Source of the DNA: Sipunculus nudus
Lineage: Eukaryota > Annelida > Sipuncula > Golfingiida > Sipunculidae
Direction: 5' to 3'
Assembly: GCA_026874595.1 (NCBI GenBank)
Contig: CM049309.1
Coordinates: 67,066,926-67,130,925, forward strand
DNA length: 64,000 nt
This document shows, one piece after another, positions 1,887 to 13,600 of this stretch (position 1 is the stretch's first letter; each line of letters starts with the position of its first letter). The position numbers were made by a program, and so were the translations under genes. The notes under the pieces were generated by a model, which searched no databases, was not told the origin of the DNA, and saw only the letters and a list, made by a program, of their open reading frames with translations.

Positions 1887-3207
1887 TAGCTCAGCTGACT
1901 AAAAGTCATCTCAGCTGTAGGGATCACTCTTTGTCCAGCGTCCGTCCGTCCGTCGTGCCGTCCGTCCGTTAACCAGGCACAAATCGTAACCGCTGGACCT
2001 GGAAGCTTCTCTCTTAACATGCTTGGAGGTCCATGAAAAATTTCCTTGGAAACCTGAAATTAGGTTTCTGTTACCCATATCCTCCGAGCTATGAGGCTCA
2101 GAAACACCCTTCACCCCCACCCCCAACCCCCCCAAAAAAACTAAAAACATGAGACAAAAACTCTAGTATCTGAACAACTAGTGCATTGATGCCATCATTC
2201 TTTGCATACAAATTCATCTTGGTGAGTTACATCCGTCTGTGCAGACTGGTGGCGTCACCTGGACTTTTTCCAAATTTTAACGCATTTTATCTTTATGTTT
2301 GAGACCTTCGAAGTTGTGGTCATCTATTAACAGGGGACAAATCGTAACCATTGGGCCTGGAATCTTCTATTTTTTCATCCCGGGAGATCCATAAAAATTG
2401 TCCATTTTAACCTGAAATTAGGTCTCTGTTACCAATATCCTCCGAGCTATTGGGCTCCGAAGTACCCCCATGAAAAACAAAACAAAAAATAATATAAACG
2501 CTCCAGCATCTGTACAACTAATGCATTGATCACCATGATTCTTTAAATGCATATTCATCATGAAGTGTTTCATCAGTTCTTGCAGACTGGTGGCGCCACC
2601 TGTTTTTTTAGAATTTTAAGCCATTTTTTTCTCTTTTTTGAGACCTTTAAAGATGCAGTCATCAATTAACAGGGCACAAATCATAACCACTGGACCCAGA
2701 ATCTTTTTACTTGAAATCCAGGGAGGTCAATGAAAAATCTCCTTGAAAACCTGTAATATGGTCTCTGTTTCCAATATTCTTTGAGTTATGGAGCTTATAA
2801 ATACTCCCCCCCCCCCCCCCGAATTATTGAAAATTTGATACCAAAGCAGGGCACATATCATAAACACTGGTTCTAAAATCTTCTAACTCATAATCCAGGG
2901 AGGTCCATGAAAAGTCTCCTTGGAAACCTGAAATAAGGTCACTGTTACTCATATTCTCCGAGCTATAGGGCTTATAAGCATCCCCCCCTCCCCGAATAAT
3001 TGAAAATTTGATACCAAAGAAGGGCACAAATCATAACCATTAGATCCAGAATCTTCTCACTTTACATCCTGAGAGTTCCACAAAAGTTCTCCCCAAAAAA
3101 CTGAAATTGGGTCCCTGTGATCTATATTCTCAGAGTTTCGTGGTATGTTTAATACACACAAATTGCCAGATTCATCAGAAAAGGCTGGTTGGATTGTCAT
3201 CAGATGA
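1887..3207 (+). repeat. Left arm of large inverted repeat, five internal units
   Basis: Starts with TTTAGCTCAGCTGACTAAAA and GTCCGTCCGTCCGTC, a terminus like those of abundant mollusc repeats. Then come units each beginning with GGCACAAATC(G/A)TAACC at about 1975, 2334, 2673, 2847 and 3020, i.e. spacing near 350 and then near 173 bases. The inner end (3152-3207) is about 90% identical to the reverse complement of 4988-5045. It includes the GACTGGTGGCGCCACCTG motif. No transposase seen. Confidence 0.8.
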
Positions 3208-8498: not shown

Positions 8499-8665
8499 CT
8501 AGTTCTGCTGCAGTAGCAGTTGCTCTAGTTCGTCCGCTGACCGGTAGAGGAAGGCTGCGGACTCTCTATATCCCGCAATCAGCTGCTTAATGGTGGCTAC
8601 CTCGCTTGGATTCAGTTGACTCTTGGATGATTGCTGGTTCTTCTTCATGCTTAGATCTGTTGGTC
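8499..8665 (-). CDS. NOL4: NOL4 exon e9 (C-terminal exon, stop TAG)
   Basis: 167 bases: two bases complete Gly, then 54 codons and a stop. The acceptor is TTATTCATTCTTCAG|GACC. The peptide is PTDLSMKKN, a short Ser/Gln linker, then [20 protein letters not shown] and [18 protein letters not shown]. Vertebrate NOL4/NOL4L ends [24 protein letters not shown], so the stop position is conserved to the residue. The tail is a predicted amphipathic, coiled-coil-like helix. PTDLS fits the PxDLS consensus bound by CtBP corepressors; that function is inference. Confidence 0.97.
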
Positions 8666-10579
8666 CTGAAGAATGAATAAAAATCAATTGAATAGTATTG
8701 TTCATCTTTCTTCCGGCAGAGGTCAGAGTAATCGACTGTACGCTCTGTACCATGATGTTGTAACGTCTTATATTTAACTGAGAGCTTCCTGAATCTGATG
8801 GCGGGCAACAGGGCCATTATGGGACTATAAATCTGCTATGTTTGAAGCTGAGCATAATTGGATACATAATTATCTGTACAATATATGGTTCTATCAATAT
8901 AATAGGTGAAAATTAAAACACTACTAATTTTAAGTGACTTCTGCATTGGGAACACGGTTTGGCGTATTTACTAAAATAATGTATAATTTAAGAAAACGAA
9001 GAGTTTGAGAGAAACTCTTACGTATCAGTATCAGTGTGATGGTCGTGGGCTTTCTTGCACCCTTATTTGTGTATGTGTCTGTGTCCGTTTTTTTTTTTCA
9101 TTTACATTAGCTGCGGTTTGGCGATAGTTGTCTTTAGCCATGTGTGCTTGGTGTGCATCAAGATGTGCGTGTGTGTATATTGCGGGTACCTACCGTTCTG
9201 TATGGGGTTGGTCAGTGGTGTTTGTTATGTGTATATTTTGCGGGTACCTCCTGTTCTGTATGGGGTTGGTCAGTGGTGTTTGTTAGGTGTATATTTTGCG
9301 GGTACCTAATTTTCTGTATGGGGTTGGTCAGTGGTGTGTGTAGTGTTTGTATTTTGCGGGTACCTACCGTTCTGTATGGGGTTGGTTAGTGGTGTGTGTT
9401 GTGTGTGTATTTTGCGGGTACCCACCGTTCTGTATGGGGTTGGTTAGTGGTGTGTGTTGTGTGTGTATTTTGCGGGTACCCACCGTTCTGTATGGGGTTA
9501 GTTAGTGGTGTGTGTTGTGTGTATATTTTGCAGGTACCTAATTTTCTGTATGGGGTTGGTCAGTGGTGTGTGTAGTGTTTGTATTTTGCGGGTACCTACC
9601 GTTCTGTATGGGGCTGGTCAGTGGTTTGTGTTGTGCGTGTATTTTGCGGGTACCCACCGTTCTGTATGGGGTTGGTTAGTGGTGTGTGTTGTGTGTGTAT
9701 TTTGCGGGTACCTACCGTTCTGTATTGGGTTGGTCAGTGGTGTGTGTTGAATCACGCCAGGGTGGTGGTGTGCTGGGTGCTGGTAACCAGGGAAGCCAGG
9801 GCGAAACAGCCCGTTACCATTGCTGAAGAACGGCGACGGCAGCTCGTGTGGCGGGCGGAAGGCGTGGGGAGGATTATGGCGGATGAAGTCCCCTGGCAGC
9901 GCCGTCTGTCGGTCGTGGTGCGGCGTGACCGGCGCCGGGCTTTGGCGGGCTGTCTGACCAGACGATTGACTTGGCGCGCTCTGCGACTGACTCGGGGGCG
10001 TGGCAGATGTTGACGTCTGTGCGACAGTTGAAGTTGCAAGCGAGTTATTCACATTCATAGCCGCCTGTAAACCAACAGACACTTACAGTTAAATTACTTG
10101 TCTGTTTGTTTTTCTTAAAATTTGTGGGATCACGTTTATTTTTACAAAAAAGTAAGTGTCGCCCCTATTATTATTACAAACGGCATGCTGGTTATGCAAT
10201 TGTGCCAATTTAATGATGATGTAATTATTTATTATCCACTTTAAACGGGAAATAGAGTAATGATGGTAGCGCCCTTCCGAGATTTCTAAAACAAAATTAT
10301 ATTTATAATGGATTATATTAAAATCAAAAGTTCACCTACAGGTAAAGGCTCGAGCCCCATCCTCATCCTTTTAGCATTGTTACTTTCATTTTCACACGCC
10401 TGCGCAAGAATTCCCTCCGCGGCTGCTGACGTCAGGTGTGGAGGCGTGGGCCGCATCTAACAAAGACAAAAGTCGAACATGGTTCAACTGATGATCAATC
10501 AAAGTTAAACCAATAAGAACCCAGCTTCATAATATGATTGATTAAACCAATAAGTAAGCAACACTGATATATTTTACAA

Positions 10580-10641
<62 letters not shown>

Positions 10642-13600
10642 TAAATCTTATCATAAAATGTACATAGTATCTCACTGTAATAATTCTATATTTGATTCCA
10701 CGCAAATATTTATATTAATAAATAGTATATATGGTCAAAATATTTACTGCTCCATCTTGATGTATGCGGGTAATAATATGCAACTTACAAAAAGTAATAA
10801 TAAGTTGTTTTCTCAATCATCATTTATCATACAAACTACATATTTACCGATTCCCATCCGTTTTGGTCCTTCGTTCGTCTCATTCGGCGACAAGATTTGA
10901 GGTAGGTTCGGATTCTTTTTCGGGCACGTTCGTGAAACTCCGGAAACTGTCGGTCACATGCCTCAAGGATGGCCTGTATCTTGTCTTTAGGTTGTTTTGA
11001 TATAGGCACCATGCGGTCTAAATTTTCATCCACAAACAAACGCACAAACATCTACAAAGAGAAAAGGGTTGAAATATAAGAAACAAGATTTTCTATTAAT
11101 TATTAAATGTTAATTGTATTCATGCATATCCTCAAATAAAATCCGTTAAAACGCTCTTAAATTAGGAACGGTGAGCCAGAATTGTATCAACTCCATGTTG
11201 CGGGCATTTTATAATTTGCCTCCGCTTATATGAGGTGTCTCCGGATATATAATTGTTCAGGATATATCCCAAATCCATGCAGGATTATTCAGGTTCATGA
11301 GGACGCACACAACTTTATAATTGATTAAACTGCTATCCATATTTTATCAGTAATTTGTAAAATCAGTAATTTGATTGTAATATTATTTAGGCTGGCATCA
11401 TTTGTCAGGAATTCACTATTTCACGTAATATTTAAATTATTTAAATATAATAAAGAAAAACGTATTATATATATTATAAACAAATTTAACTATCATGCAT
11501 TGAATAAACATGAAATTTGATAAAACAATAAACATTTGATATCATGTTTCGTCTTGTTTCCCCTATATAATTTAAAAAAATTAACAATTTCAGCGGAAAA
11601 AGGAGCCCAATAAACATTCATTGTATATTTCTTGTTACACCAACTCACATTGAAGGCTTTAAGTCTCTCTGGATCAAAGTCTTGTCCCATTGGTATTCTC
11701 TCATCATCTTCATCATCATTATCATTATCATCCTCATCGTCCTTTTCCTTTTCACCACCTTCACTAGTCTTTGTTGTGCAACTCTGTAATATCGCGGTAA
11801 ATCCTATATGTCTCCAGGCAGGCCATATTACTAGCCAGGTAAGCCATATTACTATCTAGGTAAGCCATATTACTATCCATGTAACCAATATTACTATCCA
11901 GGAAAGCAATATTACTATCCAGGTAAACCATATCACTATCCAGGTAAGCAATATTACTATCCAGGTATGCCCTATTACTACCCAGGTAAGCCATATTACT
12001 CTCCAGATAATCTATATTACTAACCAGGTAAGCAATATTACTATCCAGGTAAACCATATCACTATCCAGGTAAGCAATATTACTATCCAGGTATGCCCTA
12101 TTACTATCCAGGTATGCCATATTACCATCCAGGTATGCCCTCTTACTGAGCAAGTAAGCCAATACACTGTCCGGATAAGCTCTGTTAGTATCCTTGCAAC
12201 ATCCTGTGTCATATTCTGAAAGCCCACATTATACTTGCAAAATGTGAATGTAAAAGTACCCTTGCTGACTGCTGTTGTACATTTCAATTGTTATCAATAT
12301 GCACCCTGCTTCCATAACAGATCTGTATATATCGTGTTCATCATTACAAATGTATAATGTGCAACAGTTTGTGTTGCAGAGAAAATTAGTTCCCTGTCAA
12401 TGCACGGCATGCAATCAGCCTATACTCGTCTAGGTTCAAGGTACGGTTATAACTTACATAACATATTCTTAGGTGAGATTAACAAACCATGTTTCCATAA
12501 TTTTATATTCACTTCTATCAAGTAATTTATTGTCATAATAACTATTAAACATAAATAGAACCGTAAATATCAGTCATTACACTGTCTTAGTGAATATTAA
12601 GATCACTCACATCTACGCTCATCTCGTCACTAGCCCGTCTTTTTCTCTCCGGGTGTCCTCGATTTTCCTCCCGTTTTTCACATACTGCAAGTTCCGCGGG
12701 CGCAGACTCGGGCACGTTCTGAACTTCCGGTACTTTTACTTCCTCCTCAGCTGGTGCTACATCACTGACAACTCCGCCATTTCCGTTTACTACAGGCATA
12801 TCTTCTGCAAAAGAAAAAGAAACAACAGGTTCAATATTGTTATATGAGCCTCACTAGGCCTATATCACGCAGTAAAGAATACTTTCAACCACCAGTTGAA
12901 CTGAGAACTTGGCTTCTGTTATACAATTTAACATTCTAATAACGTTGCAACGACCTTTGTGTTGCATCACGCGCTGACTATGGGTGTATTCCCTATACGC
13001 ATGCTGGCGGAAACCTTCCCGTTACACGTCGCCCATCTATTAAAGCCCACGTGTTCGTGTATTATTTACATGACTACAAGGAGATTCTGAAGTGGTCGTC
13101 ACTGGAGATTATGAAACCACGGACGAAATCAGCTCCTAGTTTTACGAGGTTTCGATCACAGCATGACACACAAAAGATAACGAACTAAACCCTACCGGAG
13201 CAACCCAGCCTGGGGCCATACTTAAAACAAAATGACGACCACCTGAAGGAACGCTTGTCATGAAGCCTGTCAAATGCTGCACGTGAAGCCATGGCGACTG
13301 ATGAAGTTGCGTTTATGGGCAGAACAAGAGTAAGCAAGCATCCTAAATATCAATAAAGCACCCCTCTCCGCCACAGAGCGCATCAGTTAAGCCGCAGGGT
13401 ATGAGAATGGTAATTAGGACAGGGTGTGCGCGTAGAACGACCCTGAAGCCTTTGCGCAGGTTTTCCTTGTCTCCGATGATGAAAAGACAGCACGGGTCCT
13501 TTGCCTTTCAATGTGTCACCTGTCAGAACGATCAAAAAAACTCATAATGGATTTCTGTCTTCGAACACTATTGTCAATAACACGTTTACATGTGCTCACT

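Follow-up and report, generated by a model that had tools for sequence, protein, structure and literature searches.

A 58-bp minisatellite across an exon-intron border of NOL4 in Sipunculus nudus belongs to a recurrent class of exon-boundary arrays

NOL4 lies on the minus strand at the low end of the 64-kb window, the window being the whole stretch of Sipunculus nudus DNA that was analysed (64,000 nucleotides). The gene is named by its exon e7 (10848..11051), which matches the Pfam domain HTH_NOL4_2nd with an E value of 9.6e-35 in a profile search, while exons e5 (12611..12804) and e6 (11649..11783) were placed by splice signals and frame. Exon e8 (9716..10064, 349 nt) has an acceptor, TTTACAG, at its high end and a donor, ACG/GTAGGT, at its low end, and the frame is open through e7, e8 and e9. 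The coding part of e9, the last exon (8499..8665), was delimited by its open frame, and its C terminus reads LLLQQN before the stop. The final base of e8 is 9716, in phase 1; since joining it to the e9 acceptor at 8665 leaves the frame open through to the stop, the donor at 9716 is, by frame, the authentic e8 donor. Between these exon borders, the e8-e9 intron (8666..9715) measures 1050 bp, 52% of which is minisatellite array. No second copy of the e8-e9 peptide was found in the 1.43-Gb, 153-contig assembly (the next matches had E values of 0.46 and 0.85), and a paralog was therefore rejected as the source of the array.

Two other repeats of the window were recorded. At 11813-12161, a 21-bp minisatellite of 16.6 copies, with the plus-strand unit TCCAGGTAAGCCATATTACTA, contains a perfect donor-like CAG/GTAAG on the strand opposite to NOL4; its end lies some 30 bases upstream of the e6 acceptor, and several frames are open through it on both strands. 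At 2671-3135, a tandem repeat with a period near 175 bp has the text 'AGGGCACAAATC..AAC.ACTGGA' in common, by eye, with arrays of period 336-338 in two pieces sampled elsewhere (L004 and L009), with which it probably forms a dispersed repeat family.

The array in the e8-e9 intron begins within e8. Tandem Repeats Finder, with a reporting threshold of score 50, places it at 9169-9749 with a period of 58, 10.0 copies, 90% matches, 0 indels and a score of 924. Cut in register into minus-strand 58-mers (9170..9749), it gives units 0 to 9, descending from 9749 to 9170. Unit 0 (9692..9749) consists of the authentic 34-nt exon tail (columns 1-34) followed by the donor within the first 24 intron bases (columns 35-58), and units 1-9 (9170..9691) are intronic copies, six of which have an intact GT. 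The initial annotation had described about ten copies of the e8 donor in a minisatellite, seven with the donor intact, and both statements are confirmed: there are ten 58-base units of 34 exon and 24 intron bases, and GT is kept at all seven positions that had been named (9716, 9658, 9600, 9484, 9426, 9368 and 9194). It is replaced by TT at 9542 and 9310 and by GG at 9252. The HTH_NOL4_2nd domain in e7 and the open e8-e9 frame likewise uphold the claim that the array crosses the true NOL4 donor. Beyond unit 9, the next 58 bases are unrelated to the array (39 of 58 mismatched with the consensus). The edge units carry private bases, at column 24 in unit 0, which is one mismatch away from the consensus, and in common to units 8 and 9. 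The array is thus a 'mirage', an exon-boundary minisatellite whose unit holds the authentic exon-intron border, and in which many units, but not all, keep the GT.

Comparison of the units is informative about the growth of the array. Units four places apart are on average the most alike (54.2 of 58 positions, against 49.3 to 52.3 at other lags), units 1-3 being identical to units 5-7 at 57, 55 and 56 of 58 positions, so that a multi-unit block of four units was probably copied. Homogenisation within the array, one of the two explanations first offered for its intact donors, is borne out by this block copy. The array probably originated in a tandem duplication spanning the e8 5' splice site, and, judging from its units, then lengthened and homogenised through unequal exchange or slippage of unit blocks.

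Exon-boundary minisatellites are a known kind. Two reports on amphioxus (PMC3087553, PMC3902484) describe mirages in Adh3, the globin genes BflGb6 and BflGb9, PGBD5 and troponin C. Like the NOL4 array, these are tandem repeats of an exon-intron boundary, with a splice signal in many units; they also undergo concerted evolution inside the array, which the NOL4 units may share. They occur at 5' or 3' splice sites, as do the donor and acceptor arrays of Sipunculus nudus described below, and intron gain from mirages has been proposed for the amphioxus globins; an earlier paper cited on amphioxus mirages is that of Canestro et al. (2002). Splicing and length polymorphism were tested in amphioxus, whereas the NOL4 array is known from the sequence of one assembly; moreover, the published mirages are those of lancelets, and this one belongs to Sipunculus nudus. 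In humans, the CBS gene carries a 31-bp VNTR, c.1444_1467+7(16_21), which is length-polymorphic in people (PMC2630376). Its unit, summed from the HGVS name, comprises the last 24 exon bases and 7 intron bases in 16-21 copies, and so resembles the NOL4 unit (34 + 24) in composition; it differs in being shorter and in its known polymorphism. Internal tandem repeats at exon-intron boundaries are also described, in PMC2812944, for human genes in segmental duplications, where they can alter splicing or form introns; unlike the NOL4 array, they belong to young primate paralogs, with 27 intron modifications retained after manual inspection. A genome-wide census of mirages, or mirages by that name outside lancelets, were not found in the literature covered, a result of little weight given that most subscription papers fell outside it. 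The initial annotation called the NOL4 arrangement unusual; this holds in part only, the architecture having been published for amphioxus and CBS and recurring in the same genome. What is new is the genomic context, namely the recurrence across genes.

To count such arrays, we used a search pattern of three perfect CAGGTAAG donors at spacings of 22-51 bases, and grouped the matches listed into arrays by hand. The slice counted, 323 Mb in all, covers contigs C1, C2 and C3 together with the initial 16 Mb of C4. It was cut at the last of the donor arrays listed, and the donor gains slightly from this choice. Among the matches listed, it contains 22 CAGGTAAG donor arrays, 5 arrays of the reversed motif and 10 arrays of the acceptor motif TTTGCAGG; on the whole contigs C1-C3, the corresponding counts among the matches listed are 21, 3 and 10. 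Extrapolated to the whole genome, 22 arrays in 323 Mb correspond to about 97 arrays of this narrow, short-period CAGGTAAG pattern, not all of them at exons.

Exons were sought at 20 of the 22 donor arrays (L026-L045), that is, all except those at C3:96.48M and C3:97.09M. An apparent coding exon ends at the array start in 14 of the 20, as judged by eye together with an acceptor, an open frame and a donor. Twelve of these emerged at first look (L028, L030, L031, L032, L034, L035, L036, L037, L042, L043, L044 and L045), L036 being assigned by eye after the exon filter had missed it, and two others, L027 and L033, both without Pfam support, were added by eye after a check ahead of the true array starts. 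In the remaining six (L026, L029, L038, L039, L040 and L041), no convincing exon was seen within the fetched pieces; L029, L040 and L041 have weak candidates, and L038 consists of array over its full length. L026 (C1:2.779-2.788M) is a 33-bp perfect-donor array some 9 kb long, and no exon was seen in the piece taken from it.

Homology supports the exon at the array in 7 of the 20 cases. Pfam matches were obtained for Vps54 at L044 (E 9.1e-12), FancD2 at L032 (E 8.7e-7) and DOCK at L031 (E 1e-4, below Pfam's cut-off), and the exon at L042 matches the PDB sequence of XPD (E 3.6e-7). The other three match Nup155 (L045, E 2.2e-4), ABCC2 (L036, E 9e-9) and the PH domain of SKAP55 (L035, E 9.6e-4). 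The match reaches the final residue before the donor in six of the seven, and ends five residues short of it at L031. The exons at L027, L028, L030, L033, L034, L037 and L042 had no match in Pfam, and those at L030, L031 and L034 none among PDB sequences; the 16-residue peptides of L043 and of the acceptor array L046 fell under the length minimum of the homology search. At L027, a 44-bp donor array at C1:3.296M without a Pfam match, the preceding exon resembles what we take to be the end of an SLC22-type transporter. The NOL4 array is a member of a recurrent class in the Sipunculus nudus genome, shown at several genes.

Arrays of the acceptor motif were sampled in the same way (20 fetched TTTGCAGG arrays, L046-L065). 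Two of the 20 are followed, after their last unit, by an exon with homology, to the PDB sequences of USP39 (L050, E 1.2e-15) and of a natriuretic peptide receptor (L062, E 4.1e-6). By eye only, over 300 bases, L046, L059 and perhaps L065 look coding as well. The exon at L059 has RIMS2 as its best PDB match, at an E value of only 0.1, and no Pfam match was obtained for the exons at L050, L059, L062 and L065. The idea that arrays are rare at 3' splice sites is not supported, with 10 acceptor arrays listed in 323 Mb and two ending at homology-backed exons.

It may be asked whether minisatellites originate preferentially at splice junctions, for instance because of transcription, R-loops or biased repair, an idea that is compatible with the explanation favoured below for NOL4, and that we regard as unlikely. 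On its side, the 22 donor arrays listed against 5 of the reversed motif (binomial P 0.0045 for 22 of 27) exceed what the single motifs differ by, CAGGTAAG being just 1.25 times commoner than its reverse (46,239 against 37,054). Controls are few, however, and the second of the two weakens the case: AGCATGGA, compared by count alone, yields 9 arrays, or 7 once two pairs that are probably duplicates are combined, where the donor yields 19, up to C3:95.8M and among the matches listed. For other donor forms, motif counts alone give 9 arrays of AAGGTAAG, including a low-complexity one, among the matches listed on C1 and on the part of C2 that ends at 65.6 Mb, and 6 of CAGGTGAG among the matches listed up to C1:16.6M. 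Enrichment was not gauged from raw triple-motif matches, since a single long array can account for most of them. They amount to 376 + 387 for CAGGTAAG (reversed, 123 + 53), 280 + 464 for AAGGTAAG (reversed, 56 + 56), 262 + 126 for the long-period CAGGTAAGT (reversed, 86 + 24) and 248 + 70 for the acceptor TTTGCAGG (reversed, 30 + 61), but CAGGTGAG (639 + 631) stands barely above its reversed control (805 + 233), and the control AGCATGGA (232 + 471; reversed, 85 + 499) has a raw count near that of the donor. Judged by the two control motifs, donor arrays may be in excess by two- to four-fold, with raw counts disagreeing among motifs; given the 9 AGCATGGA arrays against 19 of the donor, and a raw count near the donor's, the real excess could be no more than about two-fold.

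The overall abundance of minisatellites also argues against preferred seeding. The Sipunculus nudus assembly, at 1.43 Gb, is larger than the amphioxus genome, of roughly 0.5 Gb. Counting arrays with a period of at least 15 and at least 5 copies, minisatellites make up 11.9% of the bases in twenty 10-kb pieces of C4 taken at 3-Mb steps (L002-L021; 200 kb in all), or 7.3% without the one piece that is all array, and 1.5% of the 64-kb window. That piece, L010, is filled over its whole 10 kb by a 35-bp array. With a load of about 12% on C4, many junctions would be struck by chance. Lastly, the proportion of exon sequence in the unit does not depart clearly from uniformity (Kolmogorov-Smirnov P 0.056 for 13 arrays and 0.26 for 8 arrays); a bias of the units toward exon sequence, striking in the edges given by Tandem Repeats Finder, was dropped after these tests. 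The edge finder is itself noisy: it put L032 at 2 exon bases, where Tandem Repeats Finder suggests about 28.

What would the seven intact donors do in NOL4? Only the first, at 9716, is predicted to give the full C terminus. The second, at 9658, would shift the frame of e9, and all donors from 9600 on would bring in a stop ending at nt 447, with the first base of e8 as nt 1. The predicted distance from this stop to the junction is 18 nt for the donor at 9600 and at least 134 nt for the next intact donors. In many animals, a stop that far ahead of a junction marks the transcript for decay. As unit 0 keeps the exon end and its donor, and the further copies all lie downstream within the intron, splicing at the first donor is most likely. 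We consider it likely, on the whole, that the array is a mirage born of a tandem duplication at the e8 5' splice site and homogenised in blocks, in which splicing uses the first donor and leaves the six other intact donors as mostly silent by-products. Such transcripts as arise from downstream donors are predicted to lose the NOL4 C terminus. The NOL4 array is probably splice-neutral, and is one of a population of exon-boundary arrays, shown for several genes, in a minisatellite-rich genome.

Alternatively, the ladder of donors may be in use, yielding full-length, frameshifted and truncated, e9-less NOL4 together with targets of decay, so that array length would tune the dose of NOL4. The seven donors are nearly equal in how strongly they are predicted to pair with the U1 5' end (-8.5 kcal/mol where the donor is GTAGGT, -8.1 where it is GTGGGT), so that their 9-mers hardly rank them and none favours the first. 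A precedent may exist in the human IFI6/G1P3 (6-16) minisatellite, the unit of which is reportedly 12 bp. The title of its description (Turri et al. 1995, cited in PMC2572611 and PMC3618361) speaks of multiple splice donor sites; as in NOL4, a minisatellite supplies many donors to one transcript, and on this precedent several NOL4 donors may be used. The title, however, gives several donors to the IFI6 transcript, whereas the NOL4 donors beyond the first are predicted to lose the C terminus. Functional splice variants of NOL4 do exist in mouse, but all three of them contain the C-terminal coiled coil (PMC5343783), and since downstream donors would lose the C terminus encoded by e9 here, a regulated ladder is less likely. 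The donor columns of the extra units are, moreover, without conservation, and amphioxus mirages reportedly leave splicing undisturbed (PMC3087553, PMC3902484). A ladder in use thus appears quite improbable.

Purifying selection, which had been proposed alongside homogenisation, could also maintain the extra donors, perhaps as backup sites. GT is indeed kept by six of the nine extra units, but use of any extra donor is predicted to break the protein, and variation within these units is greatest at donor columns -2 to +3: of the 33 minority cells, 11 fall there, the highest count among the 58 circular windows of five columns, which average 2.8. When the window is widened to nine columns, the whole donor, 7 of 58 windows reach 11 minority cells, so that the excess is modest. 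Given that the donor-column window was picked after inspection of the data, and that the minority cells reflect few events, we limit the claim to this: no constraint on the extra donors was seen in the minority cells of the nine extra units over the 58 circular windows. The proposal of purifying selection is rejected, and we hold such maintenance to be very improbable. An assembly artefact or a collapse of haplotypes is most improbable of all, for, even if tandem arrays are hard to assemble and a draft genome contained one misassembled amphioxus mirage (PMC3087553), the exact 58-bp period with unit-specific variants, the single place in the 153-contig assembly and the same architecture at independent genes of the assembly all speak against it.

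As one of several such arrays in this genome, the NOL4 array is possibly a good natural system for studying the choice between identical splice sites. A broader proposition, which we put forward tentatively and would lean somewhat against, is that splice junctions are recurrent and over-represented seeds of minisatellites in this genome, with about 100 arrays for one perfect, short-period donor motif alone, not all of them at exons, so that many conserved genes would have ladders of near-identical donors and some would have acceptor ladders. If true, Sipunculus nudus would provide a natural experiment, on the scale of a whole genome, in how splice sites are chosen and whether mirages lead to intron gain. 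Choice among identical donors is usually studied with few reporters; with about a hundred donor ladders, many of them in conserved genes, ordinary RNA-seq would measure how that choice varies with exon length, spacing and copy number; the same data would test whether mirages feed intron gain.
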